Shown: positions 9,539-63,390 of the stretch, piece by piece
Numbering within the stretch: the first letter of the stretch is position 1
How the letters are laid out: every line of letters starts with the position of its first letter
From: Amphibalanus amphitrite
Lineage: Eukaryota; Arthropoda; Thecostraca; Balanomorpha; Balanidae
Length of the DNA stretch: 64,000 nt
Assembly: GCF_019059575.1 (NCBI RefSeq)
Contig: NW_024881626.1
Location: forward strand, 953,220 to 1,017,219
Direction: 5' to 3'
Position numbers and translations under genes: made by a program
Notes under the pieces: model-generated
Databases searched by the model: none
What the model saw: only the letters and a program-made list of their open reading frames with translations
Told to the model about the DNA's origin: nothing

Positions 9539-12500
9539 GTGAGTCCGACAGCGGGTGAGGACAGATCGCGAAACCTGAATAGAGGCTCGAATGTGTCTGT
9601 GAGTCGCGAGCCTTAATCTTTAAAGTCTTGCATTTGTAACAGAACCACAGTCCATGCTACCTAAACGTTATTTCGGACTCCTTGGCTGCCTCGCCCGTGG
9701 CCAGCCGAAAGTCTTTTCGGTACAGTAAAGGACAAGTGAGGGGTCGCTCGGTGGACACTCACTGTGGGTCGCTCACCTCACTGTACCTTACAACAGTGTA
9801 AGGCACGGCAGAGGGGATAGTATCGTCGCTAAGCTCACTTCAAACCAATCTCCGGTCGGCATCGCCAAGGCGGAGCCGCTGGCCGTCCGGAGCCCTGTTT
9901 GTCGATGGGCGCCGGCACCGCCACAGGCCCCGTAGCTGTTTTCGGGCGGCTCCATCACAGGGACGTCGGTGTCGGCCGGCTCAATCACAGGGCGCCGCCG
10001 GCCGGCCGACTCAAGCCAGACGCCGCCGTGAGCCGACCTGCTCCGTGGCAGACGCCGCTGCGAGCCGTTCGCCAGTCGGTCCGGCCCCGCTCGGCTCAGC
10101 GCGGCCAGCCGGCCGGTCGGGCAGCGTCGGCTGGTGCTCGTGACACGGTAGCGTGCCGTGCGCGGTCCTTTGGCAGGCCGCCGAGGACGGACCGGGCCGA
10201 GCCGCCGCCCAAAGCTGCATGGACAGGCCGCCATGCCGCTCACGACCGCCTGGTAGCGGTTAGGCTGTCACATCAAGGAAGTTGTTGATCGCGAAAGGTA
10301 TTTGGGAAATTTAATCCCTGGAAGTCCCAAAACATGTAAATTTTAAATCGCGTGTTTTTGTTGAAGTAAGCTGAGTGGACTCGCTTCAGCCGGAGCTGCT
10401 AAAATTACCCTCGGAATCGGGAAGTGTCCTGTTCGGCCGGCCCACTGAGCCGTCCTTTGAGGAGCGGCCCGTCGCTGATCGCCTGCCCGGAGCCGTTCAG
10501 TGGCGTTCCGTGACTGTCGGACCGTGGGCGCCGCGTGCTCCGCCGACATGGCCGGTCCCGGGTGCTGTCACTGGCGCCGTGGGCAGGACACGTCGGCTCG
10601 GCGGCCGTCCTCGCCGCCGCTGCGGCACCCCCGAGCGCCGTCGCGGCACTGACGGCCCATCCGCGGCGGCCATTTACATATGAACGCGCCTGCCTGCAGC
10701 GGCGCGACCGGCGGCCGACGGCCATTATCGCCGTGCTGACACAACACCCATCAAAAGAGCATTACCCGTTTTTCTCGAGCGGGTAATTGCATTGTATGCG
10801 ATGACAATGCTCGGGCGCCGGCGGCCGGGAGACTGGGAAGGCCGCGCGGGAGATGACGGGCGTGGCGATGTCCGGGAGTGCGTGTGAAGGGGACGCCACG
10901 GGAGTCCACCTGGGCTGGGACGCTCGCGGACGCATGCTCAAATGTTTGTATTCAACTATAGTTTTGCGATATAACATATCACTAGCTACGATCACGATAA
11001 ATAGATGATCGGTTGCTGCGTTGAGGACAGAGGGGATGTATACTCGACTGAAGTTCCTGTAACGTCATTGTTGTGCAAGTGTGCCCGGTTTGAACGAGGG
11101 GTGGGTTCGAGGACGGGATATGACGCCATAGTGGTTCGCATCAGATCAGATAATCGTTGAAGGCCCGTCTCCATGGTGCACAATTCTGCAGGGGTACGAC
11201 GAAGCAGGTGATCTGGTGACCTTCACACACCACTTACACTGCAATGGATTCATACACCCAGACACAAGGAGGAACGACGTCAAAGCGTTTTTTTTCTCGT
11301 ATTTGCTCTGTTACTGGCAATATCGAAGAAGAATGAAGTGGGACCCGACCGTCATTACATTGCCATCAGTCAGTAAAACTAGTAGAAATGCAGACTGTTC
11401 TCACTTTGTCACTCCTACCTCATACGTGAGTGATCACGATGTCCGCCAAAATACGATTATGCCAAGCGTTCTGTCTTTTTTATTTTACAAAGAACGAATA
11501 TCCTCGGCGGCCGTCGTGCCAGCCTTGTCGTCCTACCCCTGAGTCGGCACTCCGGGTGACTCTCCCTTTCTCCAGACATGCCGACGCTGCCACTTACTGC
11601 GGACCACCTTGTTCTCGTTGGCTGCGCTTGTCAACCGTCATTTTACAGGCCAAAAGGCCGCCCATTACGTGAAAGTGCCCGTAGCCGCCTTATCTCCTTG
11701 TGAGAAACCGACAAGCTTGGCCTCTGATGGGATTTTAATGACCCATTTTCGAAATTTACACCTCGTCCTTGCTAGTGGGCCTGCTTCCAGGTCGATTGGC
11801 GCACATGGCTTGAATCGATCACGGTAAATCACACATCAGTTGTGTAAATCATGGCGCGGCTGGGACGCCCGATGGAGGGCGATCACTTAAAATTACATCG
11901 GTCACAGCACAGTGCCGTATAGGGAAATTCATCGAGGCAGCTGCGGACGCCGGCTGGCCTTGCCTCTAAAAGCTGTTCATCCAGAAGTATCTGACACATG
12001 TGACGGGCTAATTAATGCCTTGACCCTGTCGAACGGAAGATAAAGTGATTGACCTGACATTCCTTTCAAGCTCTAACTTTCGTAAAAGCTATGTATCAGG
12101 AACGTTAAACCTGCCAATATCGCACCATTGCGTTTCACCTACAGTCATGCATCAATCGTGTTTCTTGATCATTTCTTTCGGAAAACATTCATTTGTATTT
12201 CTACATATATGGCCTCGCTTTAACTGCTTTTCTCATGGCTGCAGTTGTGAGCGTACGACTACCAGCCGAGCCTGACCCTGTCCTCCTCTGTGACCAACAG
12301 CGACCCTGGAGCCGACCTACCGGCAGCTGCAGGCAATGCGGCTCGACATGTCGCCGTTCGTCATCATCTCCGTCATCGGCCAGGAGCTGCTGGCCGCCGG
12401 CAAGTACAGCGCCGCCGTGGTGGTGCTCGAGTCGGCGCTCAAGATCGGCACCTGCAGTCTGAAGCTGCGGGGGAGCGTCTTCTCGGCTCTGTCGTCCGCC

Positions 12501-15500: not shown

Positions 15501-18500
15501 AAATATTATTGAAAGGATTCGCCCATTTCCTGTGAAACCAGTCTTGAAGCCCATTTTGCTTTAATCTATGCATATTCATTGTTTTCGGTTACACACGAAT
15601 GAATTTAGTTCGTGTTCAAAAGGGAAACCAGGTCAATTCTAAGTATTGTCGTTGTGCTGAATTTTCAACTTCCACTTATCATAATCGTCCTTCATTATGC
15701 CAGTAAACATGACATAATTGTCCATGGTAATTTCTGGCTGTTGGACGAGTCCTATTTTGAGCCATTGATTATTCAGCTTGCGTGCGAAGCTGTGGCGCAC
15801 ACGGTCAGGGAGGCTGGTCGGGGCTGATGTCGGTGCCGATAGGAGCGGCGCCGGCTCCGTGTCCGCCCCCGGCCTGGCCCGGCCCGGTCCTCCGCGCCGC
15901 GCCTCCGCCGGCGGCCGCCGCTCGCCTGACCTCACCGCTATCGCCGCGGGTGTCCCACCGGACAGCCGCACACCGACTCGAGTGTTGCGTGATCGACTCC
16001 GCACCTCCGTCTCTGACCCCGCAGCCCGGTGACCGGCCGCTCCCTCCCCGTCCGCAGGCCACGTGTACACCGCCATCAGCGACTACCCGAACGCGCTGGC
16101 CTCGCACAAACAGTGCGTCCAGCTGGTGCGACAGCTGGGTGACCAGCTGCAGGAGGCACGTGAGATTGGCAACGTGGGCGCCGTCTACCTGGCCATGGGC
16201 GACTTCGACAACGCCGTGGACTGTCACATGGAGCACCTGCGCATCTCCAAACAGCTGGGCAACAAGGTGGAGGAGGCGCGCGCATTCAGCAACCTGGGCA
16301 GCTCGCACCACTACCGGCGCAGCTTCGACCAGGCCATCACCTTCCACCAGCAGGTGTTGCGTATCGCCCAGCAGCTGCGCGACCGCACCATCGAGGCGCG
16401 CGCCTACGCCGGCCTCGGGCACGCGGCGCGCTGCCTGGCCGACTACTCGCAGGCCAAGAAGTGGCACGAGAAGCAGCTGGACATGGCGCTCAGCACCAAG
16501 GACCGCACGGCCGAGGGCCGCGCCTGCTCCAACCTGGGCATCGTGTACCAGCTGCTGGGCGACCATGACGCCGCGCTGAAGCTGCACCAGGCACACCTGA
16601 ACATCGCGCGCCTGCTGCAGGACCGGGCCGGTATGGGCCGCGCCTACGGCAACATCGGTAACGCCTACAGCTCCATGGGCTACTACGAGCAGGCCATCAA
16701 GTACCACAAGCAGGAGCTGACCATCAGCAAGGAGGTGAACGACCGCAGCAGTGAGGCGTCCACCCACGGCAATCTGGCGGTGGCCTACCAGGCGCTGGGC
16801 ATGCACGAGATGGCACTGCTCCACTACCTGAGCCACCTGAACATCGCCAGGGAGCTCAAGGACACGGCCGGGGAGGCGTGCGCGCTCTGCAACCTGGGCA
16901 ACTGCCACAGCTCGCGCGGCGAGTTCGCGCTGGCCGTGCCCTATTACGAGCAGTACCTGATGCTCTCCCAGGAGCTGCAGGACGTCGAGGGCGAGGCGAA
17001 GGCGTGCCACTTCCTCGGCTACGCCCACTACTGCCTGGCCAACTACAGCGAGGCGGTGCGCTACTACGACCAGGACCTGGCACTCGCCAAGGACCTGCAG
17101 GACAAGATGAGCATGGGACGCGCCTACTGCAACCTGGGCCTGGCGCACGCCGCGCTCGGAAACTACGAGAAGGCCCTCGAGTGCCAAAAGTTCTTCCACG
17201 GTAAGTGACCTGAGATAATTTTCAGGAGCTTCGACGTTTGAACGACGAACTAAGCAACAATCGTGCATGTTCTAGCTGCTATTGCTCCTGGCTTCAAAAG
17301 CCCCTGGCATGTTTGCATTCGCTGAACCGCATACTTTATAAGCCATTTACATTTGTAGATGATTTATTGAGGAGAGGTACATGGAAACTGCTTGGTGAGT
17401 TTATTCGAACTAGAAATAAAGATATTATAAGCGTTGCGCTTGTGCCGGTATGGTTTATGTCTTTTCTCGGTTCACAGTAATCTCGTTAGCATTCTGCACC
17501 GTCTGCAGCATCCTGACCGAGCCGACGGTCACCCTGCAGCTCGCTGTCGGTCTATCATTCCCGCAGTACGTGACGGTAACTGTCCTCCTTCGCCAGCGAT
17601 CGCGCACATGATGAAGCACACGCAGGGCACGTTCCGCGCTCTGGGCAACATGGGCGACGCGCTGATGAAGATGGCCCAGTTTGACGAGGCGGTGCCCTAC
17701 TACCACAAGCAGCTGGCGGCGGCCAAGCAGAGCCGCGACCGGCCCCTGGAGGCGTGCGCGTACGGCGCGCTCGGCATGGCGCACCGCGTGCTCCGCCAGT
17801 TCGACAAGGCGCTCGGCTTCCACACTCAGGTGGGTGACGCGCGCGTCGTGTGCCGTGTGCGGGGTGGGGGCGGGGGAGGGGGCAGCGCGTCTGGCAGCGC
17901 GGCGGGGAGGAAACTGGTGCCGGACGCCGGACGGGTTTGTGGCGCCTCGGCCCGGCTACCGCCGATCTGTCGATGCTCGGCTAATCCCTCGTAGTATCAC
18001 CTGTCAGCCAATTATGTCACCTGGGTATAGGCTGATTGCATCTCTGTAAATGCCGTGCATTGTTCTTGCAGAGGGCCTTGACTGGCGATTGCGTAACGCC
18101 GGAGGCCCGGCTCGCCGCCAAATGTGATCAGTGTTCACGCACTGCGCGCAGCAATCGGCCCATCCGGTCGGCTGCACAGCTCGCTCGGGGGATAATCTGC
18201 TACCAGATAATGACCGCTGGTGATGGTCGTCATTTTTGCTGCCTCCGCTCAACGGTGATTATCGAAATTGCGGGCGGGCGTGACCTTGAATGCTTCATTT
18301 GCTTCGCCTGTGCGTTGCCGCATCATTTTTGTTGCCGAGGTTAGGTTATGCTGCCGTTGGGGCTGCTGCTCCCAGCGGCGGCTGCAGCTCGTAGCTCTCG
18401 CCTGGGAGGGCTCACGCGCCGCCAACATCTGTGAACCTACGCCTCCGTCGGTCGTTTTCACCCCGCTGAACGAGCGTCTGAACTTGGGCGCTATTTGAGC

Positions 18501-21500: not shown

Positions 21501-24500
21501 GCTGGTGCCTGTGAAATTTAAACTGGCGTGGGGTTGAAACATGCAGCGCGACACCGTTCGAATGGGGCTCTGCAGGGGTGTTGTGAGGCGGTTCTGTCTA
21601 TGCCGTGACGCTCGCGCCGCTCGGGCTGGGGCGGTGAGGCGGCGGCGGCCATGCCAGTTGGATGACGTCATCGCCCGATACGGCCGGACGGACGGACGGA
21701 CGGACGGCCGGACGGACGGACGGACGGACGGACGGACGGACGGACGGACGGACGGACGGACGGACGGACGGACGGACGGGCCCGGGTGAACCCCAGCATC
21801 TGGACGGCGTCCAATCGGCGATAATCTGACATCTCGATACTGCAGCCGCTGCTATGTGACGACACAAGAACAAGGTATTGGTGGAATGTTCTGCTAGTGT
21901 AAAAATACCGTCTCCGACTAAGCGAAGGTTTCGCCGGTGGCCCGGCTGTAGCCGCTGATTTGGAATTTCTGTTCATCTGCGGCGGTAGACCGCAGCCTGG
22001 CCGCTGACGGCATGTCGCGGTGTCGCTACTCTCTGCACTGTGGAAGGCTCGACACCGCTTCGACCGGCCAGACAGCTGCAGAAACAGGCTGGAGGCATTG
22101 TGGATACTGTGCCCTTTGTGTTCCCGATGCTGTAGCAATTTGCAAACATATTTTAAGAAAAATCGGAGGCATTCAGTCACACGGAGTCGTGCAAGAGAGA
22201 GTCACGTATGACCACCTGGTTATCATTTGAAGGTCCTTTTTAAAATAAACATGATGAGTTATTAGGTACCTATGTAGAGCCAAGGTTAGGTTCATAGAGA
22301 AGCTCTTGTCGTTCCCTTTGTCGCTGCTCCTCTGTAATGCCTAGCTTAGGATATGCCGATGACCAGGTGGGGCTGCACACTGCTCAGCCGTCTCCGGCCA
22401 GGGACTAGCGATGTGATTCCGCAAGCAGTTGAAAGCTCGATTGGAGTCCAGTCAGACGGGTGTTGGTATTTTAAACACTTTTTACGGCACCATTGGGCAT
22501 GAAAGGGTGACTAATGGAAAAGATGTCTTTCGGTACCAAGAAGCTCGGGAAAGCCTCGACTTTATATATGCACTGAACATAGTAAAAGGTGCGAGGGGAT
22601 TTTCACATCAGGACATGAAGCGAAACGTCTAAAAAAAGCGATATATTTATAGTTTAATCCCCGCTTTTTGTTCCTCGAATTGTAATTGGTGTTGTGGAGC
22701 GAGCCATATTTCATCGTTTCTTCTGTTGATTTTCCGGGAAAGTGTGTCGGGTAAATGGGTGCGAAGATGATATAGTTGTGCGTTGACGGTACGGTTCTCA
22801 GAAGCGCCAAGCAGCCCACGTTGTGCGTCAGATCGGGCGATATCCCTAGCCTTGAGCTCGAGTACATGTGAGCAATGAGCTCGGTAGGAAATGGCGTCCC
22901 GTTCAAGGATGTCACACACGCAAACTGCAGGATCGATGCATTGGAAAAATATTGTTAGCCTCATTTCCAGAAGTTAACGTTTTCGCGGCTTGTCCTGATT
23001 GCTCAGATTAGTAATAACCCAGCCAGTTTGGGCTTTCCTAGTTTTGTATGCATGCGGTTAACAAAACCAGAACTCTCAAGGGTTATGTGGTGTAAAGCCC
23101 CTTACCCCCCCCCCCCCCCCCCCCCCCCGCCCTGCGACAGTGCTCCGACGGCTCCATGACCGTCTAAAAGGCGACTGCCAGTGTCATCTCACCCTGCCCA
23201 ACAGTGCCGTGACCAGGCTGCCTGGGCCTCGTCCGCAGGAGCTAGTAATTCGCCAGGAGACGCCCAACCTGACATGAAGCCAGCCCTGTGACAGTACCCT
23301 TACTGTTCCATCCTTCTGTCACAGTAGCTGACTATTCGCCAGGAGATGGCCGTAACCCTCCTCCCCTGCTCAGCCCTGTGACAGTACCCTTACTGCTCCC
23401 CTTCTTCTGTCGCAGGAGCTGACGATTCGCCAGGAGATGGCCGTAACCCTCCTCCCCTGCTCAGCCCTGTGACAGTACCCTTACTGCTCCCCTTCTTCTG
23501 TCGCAGGAGCTGACGATTCGCCAGGAGATGGCCGTAACCCTCCTCCCCTGCTCAGCCCTGTGACAGTACCCTGACTGCTCCCATCCTTCTGTCGCAGGAG
23601 CTAACGATTCGCCAGGAGATGGCCGACCTGCGCGGCGAGTGCAAGGCGCACGGACACCTGGGCGCCGTGCACATGTCACTGGCCAACTACACAAACGCCA
23701 TCAAGTGCTACGAGGAGCAGCTGGACAGGTACGTGACTGCCGGCGGCCCGGCCGGCAGACATCTGCGACTGTCAGTGGGGTACATTAGATCAATGGAGCT
23801 GCCAATGCATGTTGTCTTCAATGGCCCCGTGTCGCTCCCGACAACAGGGAACTTTTTTTTCGGTTCACCCGACAACCACAAACAAGTGGGCATTACGACG
23901 GGATACAATCTATGCTGAGTGACCCACTCTACCATCTAACAAGCGAGTCTCCATGTTTTTAGCTTGCGAGCTACCTTGCATCGCATTCCAAAAGTTAGCT
24001 TTGAGTAAACTTTCGATTTTCCTCGCTGCGAGGTCTGTGAGTTCTGCGAGGTCTGCGAGTTTTCTTTGGAGTCTAATTTTGGCTCGTTGTGCTGGTATTG
24101 CGACCATATGTAATTTTCTGAAGGTTTACCGGCTTCACTGCATTCGTGGAGTTACCATAAGGGAACGGTCTAATCACTCATGAATTAGTATTACGCCCGC
24201 AACTCAAAACTCGTAAAATCGCAACCCGCATGCGAGGTCCAGTGTGGGGCGGCCTTAAGGGCATTGAGCAATGTCATTTTGTAGTGAACACTACATGTAG
24301 GAGGTGGGTATGCCTAATTGTTAAAAAGACACCCAGACTGATTGCATAATATGATGTCCTCTGACAGGGCGAAGGATCTCCGGGACGCCATTATGGAGGC
24401 CCAGGCGTTCGGCAACCTGGGTATCGCGCGACTCAACATGTCCCACTTCGAGGACGCCATCGGCTACTTTGAGCAGCAGCTGGCCACCCTGGAGCAGATC

Positions 24501-27500
24501 CCCACGGGCGCCGCCCTCATGGACAAGGCGCGCTCCTTCGGAAACCTGGGCGACTGCTACGACGCCATCGGCGACTACGAGGAGGCCATCAAGTGCCACG
24601 AGCAGTTCCTCAGCATCGCGCTGAAGCTGAAGTCGACCAAGGACCAGGAGCGGGCGTACCGTGGTCTGGGCGGCAGTCACAAGAGCCTCGGCAACCTCCA
24701 GCAGGCGCTGGTCTGCTACGAGAAGCGACTAGTCGTCTCGCACGAGGTGCACAACCCGCAGGCCAAGGCAAGCGCCTACGGGGAGCTCGGGGACATCCAC
24801 GGCAAACTGGGTAACTTCGAGCAGGCCATCTCGTGTCTCGATCATCAGCTCAACATCGCCAGGTGAGCAGACGGGTCGGGAGGGTTAACTGCGGTATTTG
24901 TGTACGGGACATGCACATATTCATTGTATGTTGGAGTGAACTATGATTATTTGCATTGAACATGGGTACTGGCATGTCTGCTTATACACACTTATGAAAC
25001 GTCGCTTGTTTGGAAGTTCATGGATTGTTTGGAAATGCAGAAAACCATATTCATTTTAGCAGTAAAAGTGCCCGCCCCTCTGCGCTCCCCAACTCTGTGC
25101 TGACCTTTTCTACCCCGCTCGCCGCTTCTCAGAGAGCTGGAGGACGCCGTGATGGAGGCCGAGGCCGCCAGCGGTCTGGGCTGCGTCCACCAGCAGATGG
25201 GCGACTTCCAGGCGGCGCTCGAGTTCCACCAGCTGGACGCGGCCATCTCGGGACGCTCGGGACACGCGGCCGGCCAGGCGCGGGCGCACGGTAACCTGGG
25301 CGCCGCGCACGAATCGCTCGGCAGTTTCGAGCAGGCCGTCACCCACCTGGAGCAGCAGCTGAGCGTAGCCGCCCAGATCAACGACAAGGCGGCCAAGACG
25401 GCGGCCTACGCCAGCCTGGGCCGCATTCACCACGCTCTGGGTAACACCACGCAGGCGATCGCCTACCTGCAGCAGGGTCTGCAGATCGCCGAGCAGCTGA
25501 GCCGGCGTGAGGAGGAGGCCCGCCTGCGACACCGGCTCGGCCTGGCGCTCTGGGGCCACGGCGACCTGTCTGGCGCGCAGACCCAGCTGGAGCGGGCCGC
25601 CTTCCTGCTGGAGGGTGTGCGCCGCGAGGCCCGCGGCACCAGCCAGCACCGACTGGGGCTGTACGATCTCCAGACGGCCGCCTTCCAGGCACTCCAGGTG
25701 GGTAAACAATCTGCGATCTCGTAAACATTTCCTAACTGTACGAATGTAGGATCAGGAATAAGTGATGTTTAGAGGGCATCGCTGAAATGCTTTTGATACG
25801 ACCTTGAACAGCTTTTTAGCAACTCGAAAATGCTACTTAAGGGTAATGGTAGCCCGCAGGTAAAATGTCAGCCATGCTATGACACATTTGTCGCTGTTTG
25901 ACGATGCCCTTGATTGCCTTCGCAGCGAGTACTGGTCTCCCTGGGCTGCCACGACGAGGCGCTGGTGGTTGCCGAGCGGAGTCGGACGCGGGCCTTCGCC
26001 GACCTGCTGCTGGAGCGCTCCAACAGCGGCTTCAGCAGCAGCCGCTTCACGCGCGTCGACGACAACACGCCCACCTCTGTGGAGCAGATCGTGGAGGCGG
26101 TCGGCCGCCAAAAGGCCACCGTTCTCTACTACAGCCTGGCGGCCGGCTTCCTCTACAGCTGGCTCATCGTGCCCGGCCGCGGCATCGTCAAGTTCCACCA
26201 GATCAACGTCAGTGAGACTGAGGCGCAGCGCGACGACGGCGGCACCTCTGCGGACAGCTCGGGCACCTCTGGCACGCTGCTCGAGTCCTACATCCGATCG
26301 GTGCGCGAGGCGCTGGGCGTCGAACTGCAGACGGCCGGCATGGCGAGATCGGAAGACACCGACGCGGGAGACATGTGGCAGCAGCACCTGGAGGAGCTCG
26401 GCGACCGGCTCAACCAGGAGGGCGACAAGACCGGCTTCCTGCGCATGGTCAACCGCAACCACGTGTGCAACTCGTCCAACTACAGCCTGAGCAGCATGTT
26501 CAGCGCCTTCTCGTGCAGCCTGGGCAGCGTCACGGGCTCGATGGCCAGCGGCTCCCAGAGTCGCGCTGGATCGGTCCGCTCGCGTCGCGCCGCCTGGCAG
26601 GGCCCGCAATGTCTGCGCTCTCTGTACGAGCTGCTGATCGCGCCCATGGAAGAGCACCTGCCGTCCAGCGCTTACCCGCGCGACCTGATGCTGGTGCTGG
26701 AGGGCGACCTGTACCTGGTGCCGTTCCCGGTACTCAAGGGTCCCGACAGCAGTGAGTTCCTCTGCGAGCGCTACAACCTTATCCTGGTGCCTTCCATCAG
26801 CACGCTGCGTACCAACGGGCGCTCGTCGCGCGCCGCCAAGACGAGCGGCGAGCATACCTCGGCGCTGGTGGTGGGCAACCCGCGCCTGCCGTCGGCGCTC
26901 AGCGAGCAGTGGGGATGGACCGACATCCCGTACGCCGAACAGGAGGCCAACATCGTGGCCGAGATGCTGCAGACGGAGCCGGTGACGGGCGCGGCCGCCT
27001 CCAAGGAGGCGCTCCTCCAGCAGCTGGCCCAGATGGAGTGCATCCACTTCGCCACGCACGTGTCGTGGAAGCTGTCGGCGGTGGTGCTATCGCCCGGCGA
27101 GTTCGTGGACGCGCGCCACTCGAAGCGGCCGCCGTCGCTGCACGGCTCTCAGGCGGACTCGCTGCAGGAGGACGACCAGTCGGAGGCGGCCTCCACCAGC
27201 GACCTGCCGCCGCTCTCCGAGTTCCTGCTCACCGCCGCCGACATCCTCAGCCTGAAGCTGACCGCCAAACTGGTGGTGGTGAGCTCGTGCCACACGCGCG
27301 ACCACCACGGCCGCGCCAGCTCGGACGGCGTGGTCGGTCTGACGCGCGCGCTGCTCGCCGCCGGGGCTCAGTGCGTGCTCGTCTCGCTGTGGCCGGTCAC
27401 AGACACTGCCGTCAAGATCCTCTACCGCACCTTCTACTCATCGCTGCTCCAGGTCAGTTACACTTTGTGTGCATTGATTACGGTGCAGACGTGGCTCGTA

Positions 27501-48325: not shown

Positions 48326-48988
48326 CGGAGCGAGCGAAGCGAGCGTAGTCTTTCCTTAGATTAACAGAAATTTCTGAGTATGAGCGGCCGGCCGGCCGGC
48401 CGGCCGGCCGTGCGGACGCTTTTGCGAGGCTTATATCTCAGCAACCACTTGACCGATTTACACGCGGTAATTTTTGTACGGTAGCTTCATTCCTTCTACC
48501 AAGTATTGGACTATTCCCGATGCATGTGGCTGACCCCTTATGCACGTGCCACGTGCAAAACGAAGAGGTGTCAGTTTTGTAATTGCTGCAATATCTTGGT
48601 AACTACTTGGCCGATTGCGCTGAAAGTTGGCATGTAGGTGGGCACCCACTAGGCACTGCATATCCATGTGCCAGGGTTGGGGTGCTGCTGCACGTGCGCA
48701 CGTGCAGGGGTCGTTTCCAGATCTCGAGAACGGCTGGACCGATGGCGCTCAAATTTGGCACACGGTTAGGGACCAGTTAGTAGGGTGCCGTGCAAAAGTC
48801 AGTTGGGACCCTTTCTGCACGTGCGCACGTGCAGGGTGCCGCTTCCAGATCTCGAGAACGGCTGGGCCGATTGTGCTCAAATTTGGCACATTGCTAGAGA
48901 CCGCTTAGTAGGGTGCCGTGCACAAGTCAGTTGGAGGTACCCCCTCGAAATTTCGCACGTGCAAGGCCCACCCTCTCGCTCGCTCCGT
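48326..48988. repeat. Inverted-repeat-bounded repeat with internal roughly 125-bp tandem units
   Basis: Bounded by ACGGAGCGAGCGA (48326-48338) and its exact complement (48976-48988). Inside, two similar units (about 48690-48815 and 48816-48935) share GCACGTGCGCACGTGCAGG, TCCAGATCTCGAGAACGGCT and a GCTCAAATTTGGCACA block. Related phrases (AACTACTTGGCCGATT, GCTGAAAGTTGGCA) lie just before them. A (GGCC)n run is included. No coding potential is recognised. Confidence 0.7.
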
Positions 48989-50191: not shown

Positions 50192-53100
50192 GTATTCGCC
50201 GCTATGTTGCACAGTCATGTTAAAGGAAATAACTGTGAAAAATTATTGCATAGTGCCAGGACAGCGGCCACCCATTGGCTTGACTCATTTGTTTTAACAC
50301 CTGACGTCACGGAACTAACTAAAAAGTATCTTCCCGAGGCATTCTTTCTATTTTCCGTCCCGAGTTTCCGTACCAATAGCGAATCGTAAATGAGGGAACT
50401 TATTGCAATATTTATTCAAGCCGAGGCAAATGTGCCTTCACTAACTACATTACTGACCATTTCCATATAGATCCTAGCGAGGGCACCGCCAGGTCGGATG
50501 AGCAGACGAGCTCCTGCATCTACCGAACTGGGTAAGTTCGCAATACCGACATCTTCTGCTGCACGAAACAGCCTCACTAAAACGCAATCGGATTATTTAG
50601 TACCGCAACTGAAGCAATTCAGAGTTGAGTATCGCATTACACAACGTATCTGAGGCGATGATGCTGGCATTAGGCGATTAGCACCCATGACGAATTCGCC
50701 TTCTATCAACAGACACTAACGGGTCCACTGAATGCTCGATGCCCCTCCCCCAGCGGAGCCGTGTCTGTATGTCCCCGTGCTGCCCCCAGGCGAGTTCCTA
50801 CAGCTGGGGGAGGCCACCGGCCCGCTGACCGTGTCTGTATGTCCCCGTGCTGCCCCCAGGCGAGTTCCTACAGCTGGGGGAGGCCACCGGCCCGCTGACC
50901 GTGTCTGTATGTCCCCGTGCTGCCCCCAGGCGAGCTCCTACAGCTGGGGGAGGCCACCGGCCCGCTGACCGTGTCTGTATGTCCCCGTGCTGCCCCCAGG
51001 CGAGTTCCTACAGCTGGGGGAGGCCACCGGCCCGCTGACCGTGTCTGTATGTCCCCGTGCTGCCCCCAGGCGAGTTCCTACAGCTGGGGGAGGCCACCGG
51101 CCCGCTGACCGTGTCTGTATGTCCCCGTGCTGCCCCCAGGCAAGTTCCTACAGCTGGGGGAGGCCACCGGCCCGCTGACCGTGTCTGTATGTCCCCGTGC
51201 TGCCCCCAGGCGAGTTCCTACAGCTGGGGGAGGCCACCGGCCCGCTGAAGACGACCCGCCAGTCGGGCTCAGTGATGATCGAGTGCGAGTTCATGGGCTC
51301 ACCGCCGCCTGTGGTCCAGTGGCTCAGGGGGAAGGCCGTCCATGCCCAGGTGAGACGCGAGGCCGGTGCCGCACGCAGTCGGTACCAATTTGTCGTCACT
51401 CCGCACTCGTCACTATACAGAATACCTGACAAAAGGACATCCTTGAGAATGACAATCGTCCAGCTAGTGAATGAAATGAACTTTTTTCTTCTCTTTTTCG
51501 AAGAACCTTGAAATGTTCATGTAACATGTCTTCAGGACCGGCCGAGTGACAAGCTCGCCGAGCTGCGGAGCGAGCTGTCGGGTATGGAGCCTCTGCCGCT
51601 GGACTCGGCCACAAGTATCGGGACGACCCGCGCCCGGCTGTACCTCGACTGTGTCAGTCCTGCCGACCAGGTCAGTCGCTAACCCCGCGGTATCGGGGCG
51701 ATCCGCGCCCGGCTGTACCCCGACTGTGTCAGCCCCGCCGACCAGGTCAGTCTGGCACCTCGACTGTGTCAGCCCCGCCCACCAGGTCAGTCTGGCACCT
51801 CGACTGTGTCAGCCCCTCCGATCAGGTCAGCCTTCGTGGCCGCCGCGCCGTGAGCACTGAGCAGTATCGGTATCAGATACCAATAATTACCCAATCTCCA
51901 GATCAGGGCACACCAGAAAATAACTAGCCGGGATTATGTGTGATTCGATTTATTCAGCATTCGAAAGTTAAATGAGGCCTTTGCAAAGGCGATATTGGTG
52001 CAGGCAAATTTGCGGTCAATATAATTGGGCTTCAGTATATCGAATGGCGCCAGACGGCCACTCCAATGGATTGCACGGCAACCTACAGGAATAATCAATC
52101 CATGTAATAGGGAAAGATCCAAGGAAACTTCTACACGTCTGTCTGTTACAAAGGCTTGCAATGCATCAGCCTCCTTGTCCACGGGCTCAGACAAATGGGC
52201 GTCCCCTGCTGGCTTAATAGAAACGGGCATTTCTATCGTGCCATCCAGAACAAAGCATCATCGCTGAAACCTAGCAATGTGTGGAGGGCTCACCAAATCG
52301 GTCCTATTTGGCATCTGGAAAAGGGAAAACGAATGGTGAAGCTTCAGGAATGCTTATCGGTACAAAATAAAGCCTTCGTTCATGTAAAGGCGTCTCACGA
52401 ATCAAGATACAGCCATCGAAACACATTGCCCTTGTAACCGGTGCCCTGGTAAAGGTATTCGTGTCGAGTATTACACGACTGTTCCCAAATACGGTGTCAA
52501 AAATTGATATCGGTAAAGCCGGTTTGCCGTTGGGTCTGCACCCACGACGAAATGTCGGGCCGGGGGCTGTCGCTGGCACCGTTACCGCTCAGGGTCAAAG
52601 AAAGGTGGAAAGGTACTGGCAAAACAACCGGTCAGCTGCCGTCTTACGTATTCGCTTGTTGTTAAATAATGCCCGGTAATACCAAACCAAATAGGTATCT
52701 GGTGGATAATAATGGAGACTGAACTAGTGTTTCAATAAAAATAGTTTCCATTTCAAAAGATGTGTACCGTAAAGGGGCTATTTGAGACAGTGGGGCTATT
52801 TGAGACAGTATTTAAAATCGCTATAAAATGGAGAGCGTTTGATTTTTATGTGATATTTTTGCTCAGGAAGGTGTGGAATCGAGCGGTAAATCGCCTATGC
52901 AAAAATTAAGCATAAATTTCGAACGGTTTTTATTTTATAACAATTTTAAATACTGTCTCAAATAGCCCCACTGTCTCAAATAGCCCCACCTTACGGTACA
53001 CAATCGGTCATCTGTTGAAAGTAAACCAACGATACCTACGTCTCAAGTCCAGTAGCAACAACTTAAGTCTGGAACGTTGCTTTCGGTTAGAACTTGCAAG

Positions 53101-61015: not shown

Positions 61016-61240
61016 GCCGCGACCGGTGCCGAGCAGAAGGCACGTGCTTTAGGTTCAGTTGTTCGCTTAAAACTGAGTCAAAAGCATCAGAGCCGGGAGG
61101 TCGTTGACCTTTGACAACGAAGGCCGACACAAGGCACCGCTCGCCAAGGGGATTCGCCAGTAAATACATGCAATTAATTTGTTTTTGCAATATCTCAGCC
61201 GTTTCTCGGCCGATTTAGCTGAAACTTGGACGGTCGGTGG

Positions 61241-61920
61241 TAGTGTAGGGTAGGGTAGGGTAGGGTTGGGTAGGGTAGGGTAGGCTAGGGGTAGGGTAGG
61301 GTAGGGTAGTGTAGGGGTAGGGGTAGGGGTAGGGGTAGGGTAGGGGTAGGGTAGGGTAGGGGTAGGGTAGGGTAGTGTAAGGGTAGGGTAGCGGTAGGGT
61401 AGGGTAGGGTAGGGTAGGGTAGGGTAGGGTAGGTAGTGTAAGGGTAGGGTAGGGTAGGGTAGGGTAGTGTAGGGGTAGGGTAGGGTAGGGTAGTGTAGGG
61501 GTAGGGTAGGATAGGGGTGGGTAGGGTAGGGTAGGGTAGGTTAGGGTAGTGTAAGGGTAGTGTAGGGTAGGGTAGGTAGGGTAGGGTAGGGTAGGGTAGG
61601 GTAGGGTAGGGTAGAGTAGGGTAGGGTAGTGTAGGGGTAGGGTAGGGTAGGTAGGGTAGGGGTAGGGTAGGGTAGGGTAGGGTAGGGTAGGGTAGGGTAG
61701 AGTAGGGTAGTGTAGGGGTAGGGGTAGGGTAGGGTAGGGTAGGGGATTGTAGGGTAGGGTAGGGTAGGGTAGGGTAGCGTAGGTTAGGGTGGGGTTGGGG
61801 TAGGGTAGGGTAGGGTAGGGTAGTGTAAGGGTAGGGTAGGGTAGGGTAGGGGTAGGGTAGGGTAGGGCAGGGTTAGGGGTAGGGTATGGTATGGTATGGT
61901 AGGGTAGGGTAGGGTAGGGA
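61241..61920. repeat. (TAGGG)n array 1
   Basis: About 680 bases of TAGGG pentamers with common GTAGGGG, GTAGTGTAAGGG and GTAGGGATTG variants; higher-order blocks are suggested by the recurring TAGTGTAAGGG. G-rich on the plus strand. It is not the arthropod telomere repeat TTAGG nor TTAGGG. Confidence 0.95.
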
Positions 61921-62682
61921 AGGTTGAATTGAGTAACATCCTAACTTACGAAGGGCTCGAACAACTCGCATGCATCACCATCATACTTCACAGTTCAATT
62001 AAAAGCAGTTACCCAGTTCTTCACAAATAATACCAATAAAAATGCAAGTTTCTTCACCCAAACTAATGCATCCGTTAATCATACATATCAAAACATACAG
62101 TTATCGCGCAAACCTGTACCTCTAGTCTACTATTATAAATCTTAAAAAGTTCCACGCCGCCGTCGGGGTTACTCCCTAAAAGGCTTATTACGGCGCCGTC
62201 GATTGACGCAAGAGGGTGAAATTTTCACGACTCGTGGGTCACGTCATTCAACAGGTCTTATTAAATTTTGGGCACGATGCGGCCGGGGGTGCGCCCGTGG
62301 CGCGTGCTCATGTGCGCCATAGGGTTAGCATTAGAATCGGCATAAACACTTATTTAACAGGCTATTGCTCGGAAACGGTGAGGGCTACGGGGGTGAAATT
62401 TTCATGCCAAGTCGAGCGCGTGCACTCATTTGTCGTATTAAATTTTCGACGGTGTGGGTTCAGCGGTGTGCACGTGGTGGGGCCGCGACCGGTGCCGAGC
62501 AGAAGGCACGTGCTTTAGGCTCAGTTGTTCGCTTAGAAAACTGAGTGAAAAGCATCAGAGCCAACGAAGGCCGACACAAGGCACCGCTCGCCAAGGGGAT
62601 TCGCCAGTAAAAACAATTAATTTGTTTTTGCAATATCTCAGCCGTTTCTGGGCCGATTTAGCTGAAACTTGGACTGTCGGTG

Positions 62683-63390
62683 GTAGTGTAGTGTAGGGTA
62701 GGGTAGGGTAGGGTAGGGTAGGGTAGGGGATTGTAGGGTAGGGTTGGGTAGGGGATTGTAGGGTAGGGTAGGGTAGGGTAGGGGATTGTAGGGGATTGTA
62801 GGGTAGGGTAGGGTAGGGTAGGGTAGAGTTAGGTAGGGTAGAGTTAGGTAGGGTAGGGTAGGGTAGGGTAGGGTAAGGTAGGGTAGGGTAGGGTATAGTG
62901 TAAGGGTAGGGTATGGTAGGGTAGGGTAGGGTAGGGTAGGGTAGGGTAGGGTAGGGTAGGGTAGGATAGGGTAGGGTAGTGTAAGGGTAGGGTAGGGTAT
63001 GGTAGGGTAGGGTAGGGTAGGTTAGTGTAGGATTAGGGTAGGGTAGGAGTAGGGTAGGGTAGGGTAGGGTAGTGTAAGGGTAGGGTAGGGTATGGTAGGG
63101 TAGGGTAGGGTAGGGTAGGGTAGTGTAAGGGTAGGGTAGGGTAGGGTAGGGTAGGGTAGGGTAGTGTAAAGGTAGGGTAGGGTAGGGTATGGTATGGTAG
63201 GGTAGGGTAGGGTAGGGTAGGGTAGGGTAGGGTAGGGTAGGGTAGGGTAGGGTAAGGGTAGGGTAAGATAGGGTGGGGTAGGGTAGGGTAGGGTAGGAGT
63301 AGGGTAGGGTAGGGTAGGGTAGGGTAGGGTAGGTAGGGTAGGGTAGGGTAGGGGTAGGGTAGGGTAGGGTAGGGTAGGGTAGGGTAGGGT
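62683..63390. repeat. (TAGGG)n array 2
   Basis: About 700 bases, same pentamer and variants as array 1 and the same flanks, so it belongs to the second unit of the macro-repeat. The minus-strand LPYPT ORF across it is a periodicity product. Confidence 0.95.

Follow-up and report, generated by a model that had tools for sequence, protein, structure and literature searches.

In amphioxus, minisatellites with a repeat unit that spans an exon-intron boundary have been described as "mirage" minisatellites. According to the available text of PMC3087553, they lie on the acceptor as well as on the donor side of introns, have unit sizes of 10 to 160 bp, were found with 6 vs 3 units in two haplotypes, and display homogenisation, and RT-PCR suggests that splicing is left undisturbed. 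They are also covered, as far as its available text goes, in PMC3902484, and somatic instability is reported for Adh3. For human genes lying in segmental duplications, the accessible part of PMC2812944 describes variable internal tandem repeats at exon-intron boundaries. Within the open-licence PMC literature, arrays named mirage came up in amphioxus only, and splice-junction arrays of arthropods were looked for there and not found. Introns are said to be gained by tandem duplication of AGGT segments, and lectins of river prawns reportedly carry variable tandem repeats in their coding region.

The window, i.e., the whole stretch of 64,000 nucleotides analysed here, contains the TTC28 gene of the barnacle Amphibalanus amphitrite. 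The array of acceptor copies upstream of TTC28 exon f was confirmed to be real, and it is very probably a minisatellite of the mirage type, with a unit spanning the 3' splice site, a last copy that is spliced, and upstream copies that are intronic.

The TTC28 gene and its acceptor array

The six TTC28 exons (Table 1) join into one open frame of 1364 residues, all of which (1364/1364) match the species' predicted protein. This protein, P0231, is a prediction annotated as "TTC28-like isoform X3" and is the one of its cluster's 10 member sequences that was compared. A Pollicipes protein showed 88% identity to the A. amphitrite model over 1355 aligned residues, and among the shorter proteins searched for A. 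amphitrite transcripts none was near-identical, the best listed identity being 84% over 18% of the query.

Table 1. Exons and array features in the window (a slash marks the boundary between exon and intron)
Feature	Position in window	Strand	Details	Basis
TTC28 exon	16058-17200	+		gene model, predicted-protein match
TTC28 exon before exon f	17597-17829	+	ends in phase 0; CAG/GTGGGT	gene model, predicted-protein match
Intron-like diverged stretch, probable outlier of copy 1	23128-23155	+		local alignment
Decoy copy 1	23234-23266	+	CGCAG/ + 28 bases; ELVIRQETP; decayed	exon start 23239
Decoy copy 2	23281-23352	+	partial intron piece, CACAG/; exon part starts with TAG	exon start 23325
Decoy copy 3	23353-23443	+	63 bp of intron including the acceptor, then 28 bases of exon	exon start 23416
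Decoy copy 4	23444-23534	+	identical to copy 3	exon start 23507
Intron part of the real unit	23535-23597	+	contains the gene-model acceptor	gene model
TTC28 exon f, real copy	23598-23728	+	131 bp; donor CAG/GTACGT	1364/1364 aa match; exon start 23598
TTC28 exon after exon f	24368-24862	+		gene model, predicted-protein match
TTC28 exon	25133-25697	+		gene model, predicted-protein match
TTC28 exon	25926-27452	+		gene model, predicted-protein match
70-bp acceptor array	50759-51248	+	7 x 70 bp; 31 bp intron with acceptor + 39 exon bases	TRF
Real Ig-like exon of the 70-bp array	51210-51349
Donor-side array	51640-51830	+	exon end + CAG/GTCAG; unit 40 bp	TRF

Tandem Repeats Finder (TRF) reported the array at 23281-23625 with a period of 91, 3.8 copies, 95% matches, and a score of 613, whereas 50 dinucleotide shuffles of the whole window yielded six arrays with a period of at least 20 in all, with a top score of 56. 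Together with the mapped exon starts, this array bears out the four acceptor copies that an earlier note on this DNA had placed before exon f. Copies 3 and 4, in which the ELTIRQEMA codons are intact, are letter-identical over 91 bases, the number of such identical copies being that of the sequence as assembled; compared with them, the real unit has other letters at 4 of the 91 positions. Copy 1 has diverged strongly: in alignments of 99 to 103 columns with the other units, only 61 to 66 are identical. What seems to be the intron part belonging to copy 1 is found some way 5' of it, at about 23128-23155; this stretch resembles the intron part of the repeat unit (72% over 29 nt) with a score that was reached by none of 2000 shuffles, the poly-C run included in the alignment giving part of that score. 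The 79 bp directly 5' of copy 1 gave no significant alignment with the unit (19% of 2000 shuffles).

Some details of the earlier note had to be revised. The copied exon part, given there as exactly 27 bases, actually comprises 28, base 28 being a G that is common to the real exon, and the 91-bp unit agrees with the TRF period but not with the spacing of copy 1 to copy 2, which is 86. The GT that was noted after codon nine is present; because copies 3 and 4 match the exon over 28 bases, apart from one base, it straddles the repeat junction, consisting of one exon base and the base with which the copied intron piece begins. The phase 0 assigned to both sides of the intron stands, as exon f and the exon before it join in the open frame of 1364 residues, and the decay of copy 1 as well as the TAG at the beginning of copy 2 were both seen in the unit alignments.

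The same note had considered copies 3 and 4 as 27-base micro-exons, which would add in-frame ELTIRQEMA repeats as an insert of variable length; TTC28 would then have a helix that varies in length. Both copies indeed have intact acceptors and an open frame in phase, with an AG before and a GT after it, but the micro-exon donor GCC/GTAACC reaches only -0.31 in a position weight matrix of vertebrate type, compared with 8.6 to 11.2 for six real TTC28 donors. This is the background level, since 41.5% of 337 GTs in the intron reach at least the same score, and the predicted U1 pairing of the same site is -1.6 kcal/mol, as against -8.3 to -13.3 kcal/mol for the six real donors. In addition, the GT depends on base 28 happening to be a G, and the second haplotype described below (B) has no upstream copy with intact ELTIRQEMA codons. 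At the protein level, none of 189 homologues, mostly predicted proteins, shows a gap between residues -12 and +14 relative to the junction; these are distinct proteins (P0001-P0120 and P0231-P0299) from the best 120 of 596 and the best 120 of 744 matches, all of which align across the junction, 110 shorter matches being excluded. The background donor, the state of the decoys in B, and the homologues without an insert together speak against a variable ELTIRQEMA insert, and we regard micro-exon use of the copies as very improbable, although copies 3 and 4 may be used at a low level.

A second haplotype and the choice of acceptor

Searching the 807.6-Mb assembly with the array returned two matching places, namely the window itself and contig C287 (654666-655020); a third match, as expected of a dispersed element, was not found in the 807.6 Mb by this search, which skips very common words. 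Judged from its sequence, C287 is the second haplotype (B) of the window region: from 3629 to 60230 of the window, the two run in collinear blocks that are about 92 to 99% identical and are interrupted by gaps and insertions, exon f is identical at 128 of 131 positions, and the adjacent intron at 721 of 764 aligned columns. Haplotype B also holds about 9.6 kb of extra sequence at window 9756-9784.

At the TTC28 array, B has four acceptors vs five in the window (three vs four upstream copies), its units reading, in order, ELVICQETP, ELTSRQEMA, stop-LTIRQEMA, and ELTIRQEMA of the real exon. The real acceptor of B is of the decoy type, showing 0/28 exon mismatches to window copies 3 and 4 and sharing with them the CTTAC branch region and the GAGCTG codons. 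The TAG unit of B, which adjoins the real exon, carries the CTGAC region found in the window's real unit. The tract of window copy 2 is similar to that of B unit 2 (CTGTTCCATCC vs CTGTTTCATCC), and from CACAG/TAGCTGACTATTC onward the copy is similar to B unit 3. Decoy-type sequence at the working acceptor of B shows that unit variants have moved between decoy and working positions, so that the units follow no simple age order; the left-to-right age series proposed earlier is contradicted by the position of the TAG unit in B. Few-percent differences between units need not be old either, since an average coding diversity of about 5% is given for the congener B. improvisus in the available text of PMC8270832. 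Stop or missense changes were found in the decoy codons of five of the seven decoys (A1, A2, B1, B2, and B3) and in neither of the two real copies.

The comparison of the two contigs also bears on the possibility of an assembly artefact, by which a single copy would have been falsely expanded. The identity of copies 3 and 4 over 91 bp would fit this reading, as would two contig pairs of the same assembly which are letter-identical over the fetched stretches and may be redundant. However, the array is present in two contigs several percent apart, in different copy numbers and with unit variants particular to each, which leaves an artefact with hardly any probability.

For every one of the seven TTC28 decoys, straight use of the acceptor would end at a stop 0 to 18 codons into the exon, in line with the earlier claim that plain use of the copies runs into a stop, which holds for 4/4 decoys in the window and also for 3/3 in B. 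Over 20 bases, decoys 3 and 4 have a tract no poorer in pyrimidines than that of the real acceptor (0.85 vs 0.80). The earlier note had offered, as an alternative to the variable insert, that the acceptors are told apart by downstream exon context; the part of this that gains support, from the decoy tracts, the real acceptor of B, and the 70-bp array treated below, is that near-identical acceptors may be distinguished by something outside the acceptor itself.

Silencing of the decoys by their branch site (CTTAC in copies 2 to 4 vs CTGAC in the real unit) was considered and rejected, as the real acceptor of B has CTTAC and a decoy of B, the TAG unit, carries CTGAC.

Further junction arrays in the window and at kinase loci

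Two more arrays lie at junctions of an Ig-like gene in the window, whose junctions were located through the arrays themselves. Its Ig-like exon and the next exon together gave a match to Ig_3 (E=1.8e-4), which is weak and below Pfam's curated cut-off. The 70-bp array has seven units in the window vs eight in B. Directly before the exon part, CCCCCAG stands in 7/7 units of the window and CCCGCAG in 8/8 units of B, and this constant C vs G across units shows the array to be homogenised within each haplotype. The 31-bp intron parts are identical in all seven window units, and B has two kinds of them (five and three). Use of a decoy of this array would reach a stop in the exon in five of six cases in the window, the sixth shifting the frame, and in 7/7 cases in B. 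In the donor-side array, the real donor lies after 51670 and the decoy donors after 51745, 51785, and 51825, which makes four donors in the window vs three in B; decoy use would result in a stop in 3/3 cases in the window, and in 2/2 cases in B the frame would shift with no stop following in the stretch. Every one of the three window arrays, with units of 91, 70, and 40 bp, differs in length between the haplotypes.

Other repeats in the window are a 128-bp unit at 48688-48934 (1.9 copies, 89% matches) and, close to the end of the contig, two arrays of (GGTAG)n that are about 700 bp long (61239-61923 and 62682-63390).

Outside the window, 55 partial-domain kinase loci were picked by eye from 140 PF00069 matches, with the aim of one per contig pair and with some omitted, before any repeats were looked at; the survey covers 20 of these 55. 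Counting merged arrays with a period of at least 20 and a score of at least 80, we obtained 10 arrays, all of which were inspected: four span a probable splice junction, and, apart from a second array of L046 and that of L052 described below, no junction was found on inspection in the remaining ones. For two of the four, L049 and L053, the exon is confirmed by Pfam. At L049, the array copies the acceptor and 17 bases of a kinase exon (PF07714, 1.2e-18), giving four acceptors including the real one; its unit ends in GAG/GTATCA with a donor score of 2.9, which is better than that of the TTC28 unit, though 17 is not a multiple of three. In a paralogue of this gene, located on C131 and C375, the site has just one acceptor and no array. 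At L053, the acceptor and 26 bases of a kinase exon are present in five copies including the real one, one of them weak, and the exon matches PF00069 positions 72-122 (4.2e-10), followed in the same locus by a match to positions 120-217. L050 carries an acceptor array of three copies including the real one, before an open exon with a good donor and a codon score of 0.48 but no Pfam match above the cut-off; one of its two decoys would yield an open in-frame insert. The donor-side array of L046, with a 22-bp unit, is the weakest case because its codon score is only 0.08 and it has no Pfam match; a second array at this locus looks like a degenerate continuation of the first.

An array of a different position, 45 bp x 5, covers the stop codon (CKQCTIL-stop) and the 3' end of a kinase-family gene (L052:2254-2481). 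The 30 best-match loci (L014-L043), mostly whole domains in one frame, revealed three arrays, none of which spans a junction; the 28 to 29 bp repeats at L025:1056-1182 and L039:160-235 stop 3 to 6 bases short of an apparent acceptor and are repeated pyrimidine tracts. The contig pairs L046/L064 and L050/L065 are letter-identical over 901 and 819 bases, respectively, and may be identical alleles or redundant contigs. As the arrays of L046 and L050 are the same in both contigs, a length difference between haplotypes is not general.

These further loci are also relevant to the idea that the TTC28 decoys are regulatory poison acceptors, the stop on their use lowering TTC28 output to a degree tuned by copy number. 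Such a role would agree with the stop after all seven decoys of the two haplotypes and with the intact state of decoys 3 and 4, but both copy number and sequence vary between haplotypes, the decoys decay, and similar arrays occur at unrelated genes, which suggests a mutational cause. We consider regulation of this kind improbable and favour a minisatellite that happens to span the splice site.

Proposed origin and comparison with known systems

For the TTC28 minisatellite, we propose that about 63 bp of the intron end were duplicated in tandem together with 28 bp of the exon start. This event would be nearly silent if the exon-attached copy was used, and the array would then evolve as a minisatellite, changing its length and shuffling its variants, for which unequal exchange or conversion is the most likely mechanism, whereby the haplotypes would come to differ in unit number and in the variant sitting at the exon. 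A normal mRNA would result from splicing to the last copy, which alone is continuous with the exon body; the upstream copies, being intron when the last copy is spliced, would be free to vary and their codons to decay. Most likely, the last acceptor would be chosen mainly via the strong donor 131 bp downstream, i.e., by exon definition, and the products of occasional decoy use would be removed by nonsense-mediated decay.

Taken more widely, splice-junction minisatellites of barnacles may form a recurrent and polymorphic class, in which decoys and working site exchange sequence by concerted evolution and acceptor choice rests on exon context or RNA decay; we see the chances for and against this generalisation as evenly balanced. 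Arrays of this kind at several genes of one crustacean suggest a general outcome of minisatellite turnover, which may be more readily noticed in genomes of high diversity. If the proposal is true, as many as seven acceptors with the same intron end compete in one animal as a natural series. Natural alleles with four vs five, or seven vs eight, near-identical acceptors, for which the site sequence can hardly be the cue, would allow exon definition to be tested directly against first-come choice, along with a hidden cost via RNA decay.

Compared with intron gain by duplication of AGGT segments, the barnacle array has in common that a tandem duplication yields extra splice signals; in that process, however, a new intron arises inside an exon, whereas the array lies at the edge of an existing intron. 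The human repeats, in the accessible part of their description, likewise show minisatellite expansion at an exon edge that changes gene structure, but there the differences are between paralogues, and many of them come with transcripts retaining the repeat (PMC2812944), whereas the barnacle copies are most likely intronic.

The amphioxus mirages, as far as their available descriptions go, share considerably more with the barnacle arrays, namely a junction-spanning unit, occurrence on acceptor and donor sides, unit-number differences between haplotypes, homogenisation within the array, and a real exon continuous with the outermost copy; the barnacle units of 91, 70, and 40 bp fall inside the amphioxus range. 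Differences concern the host, a cirripede crustacean instead of a cephalochordate, and the units at the cluster boundary, which in amphioxus BflGb6 are excluded from homogenisation according to the same texts, whereas the real-exon unit of the barnacle shares variants with the decoys. Undisturbed splicing is suggested by RT-PCR in amphioxus, while the barnacle arrays are known from sequence and from a predicted protein without an insert. In the sequence-level features that were tested, the barnacle arrays fit the description of mirage minisatellites.
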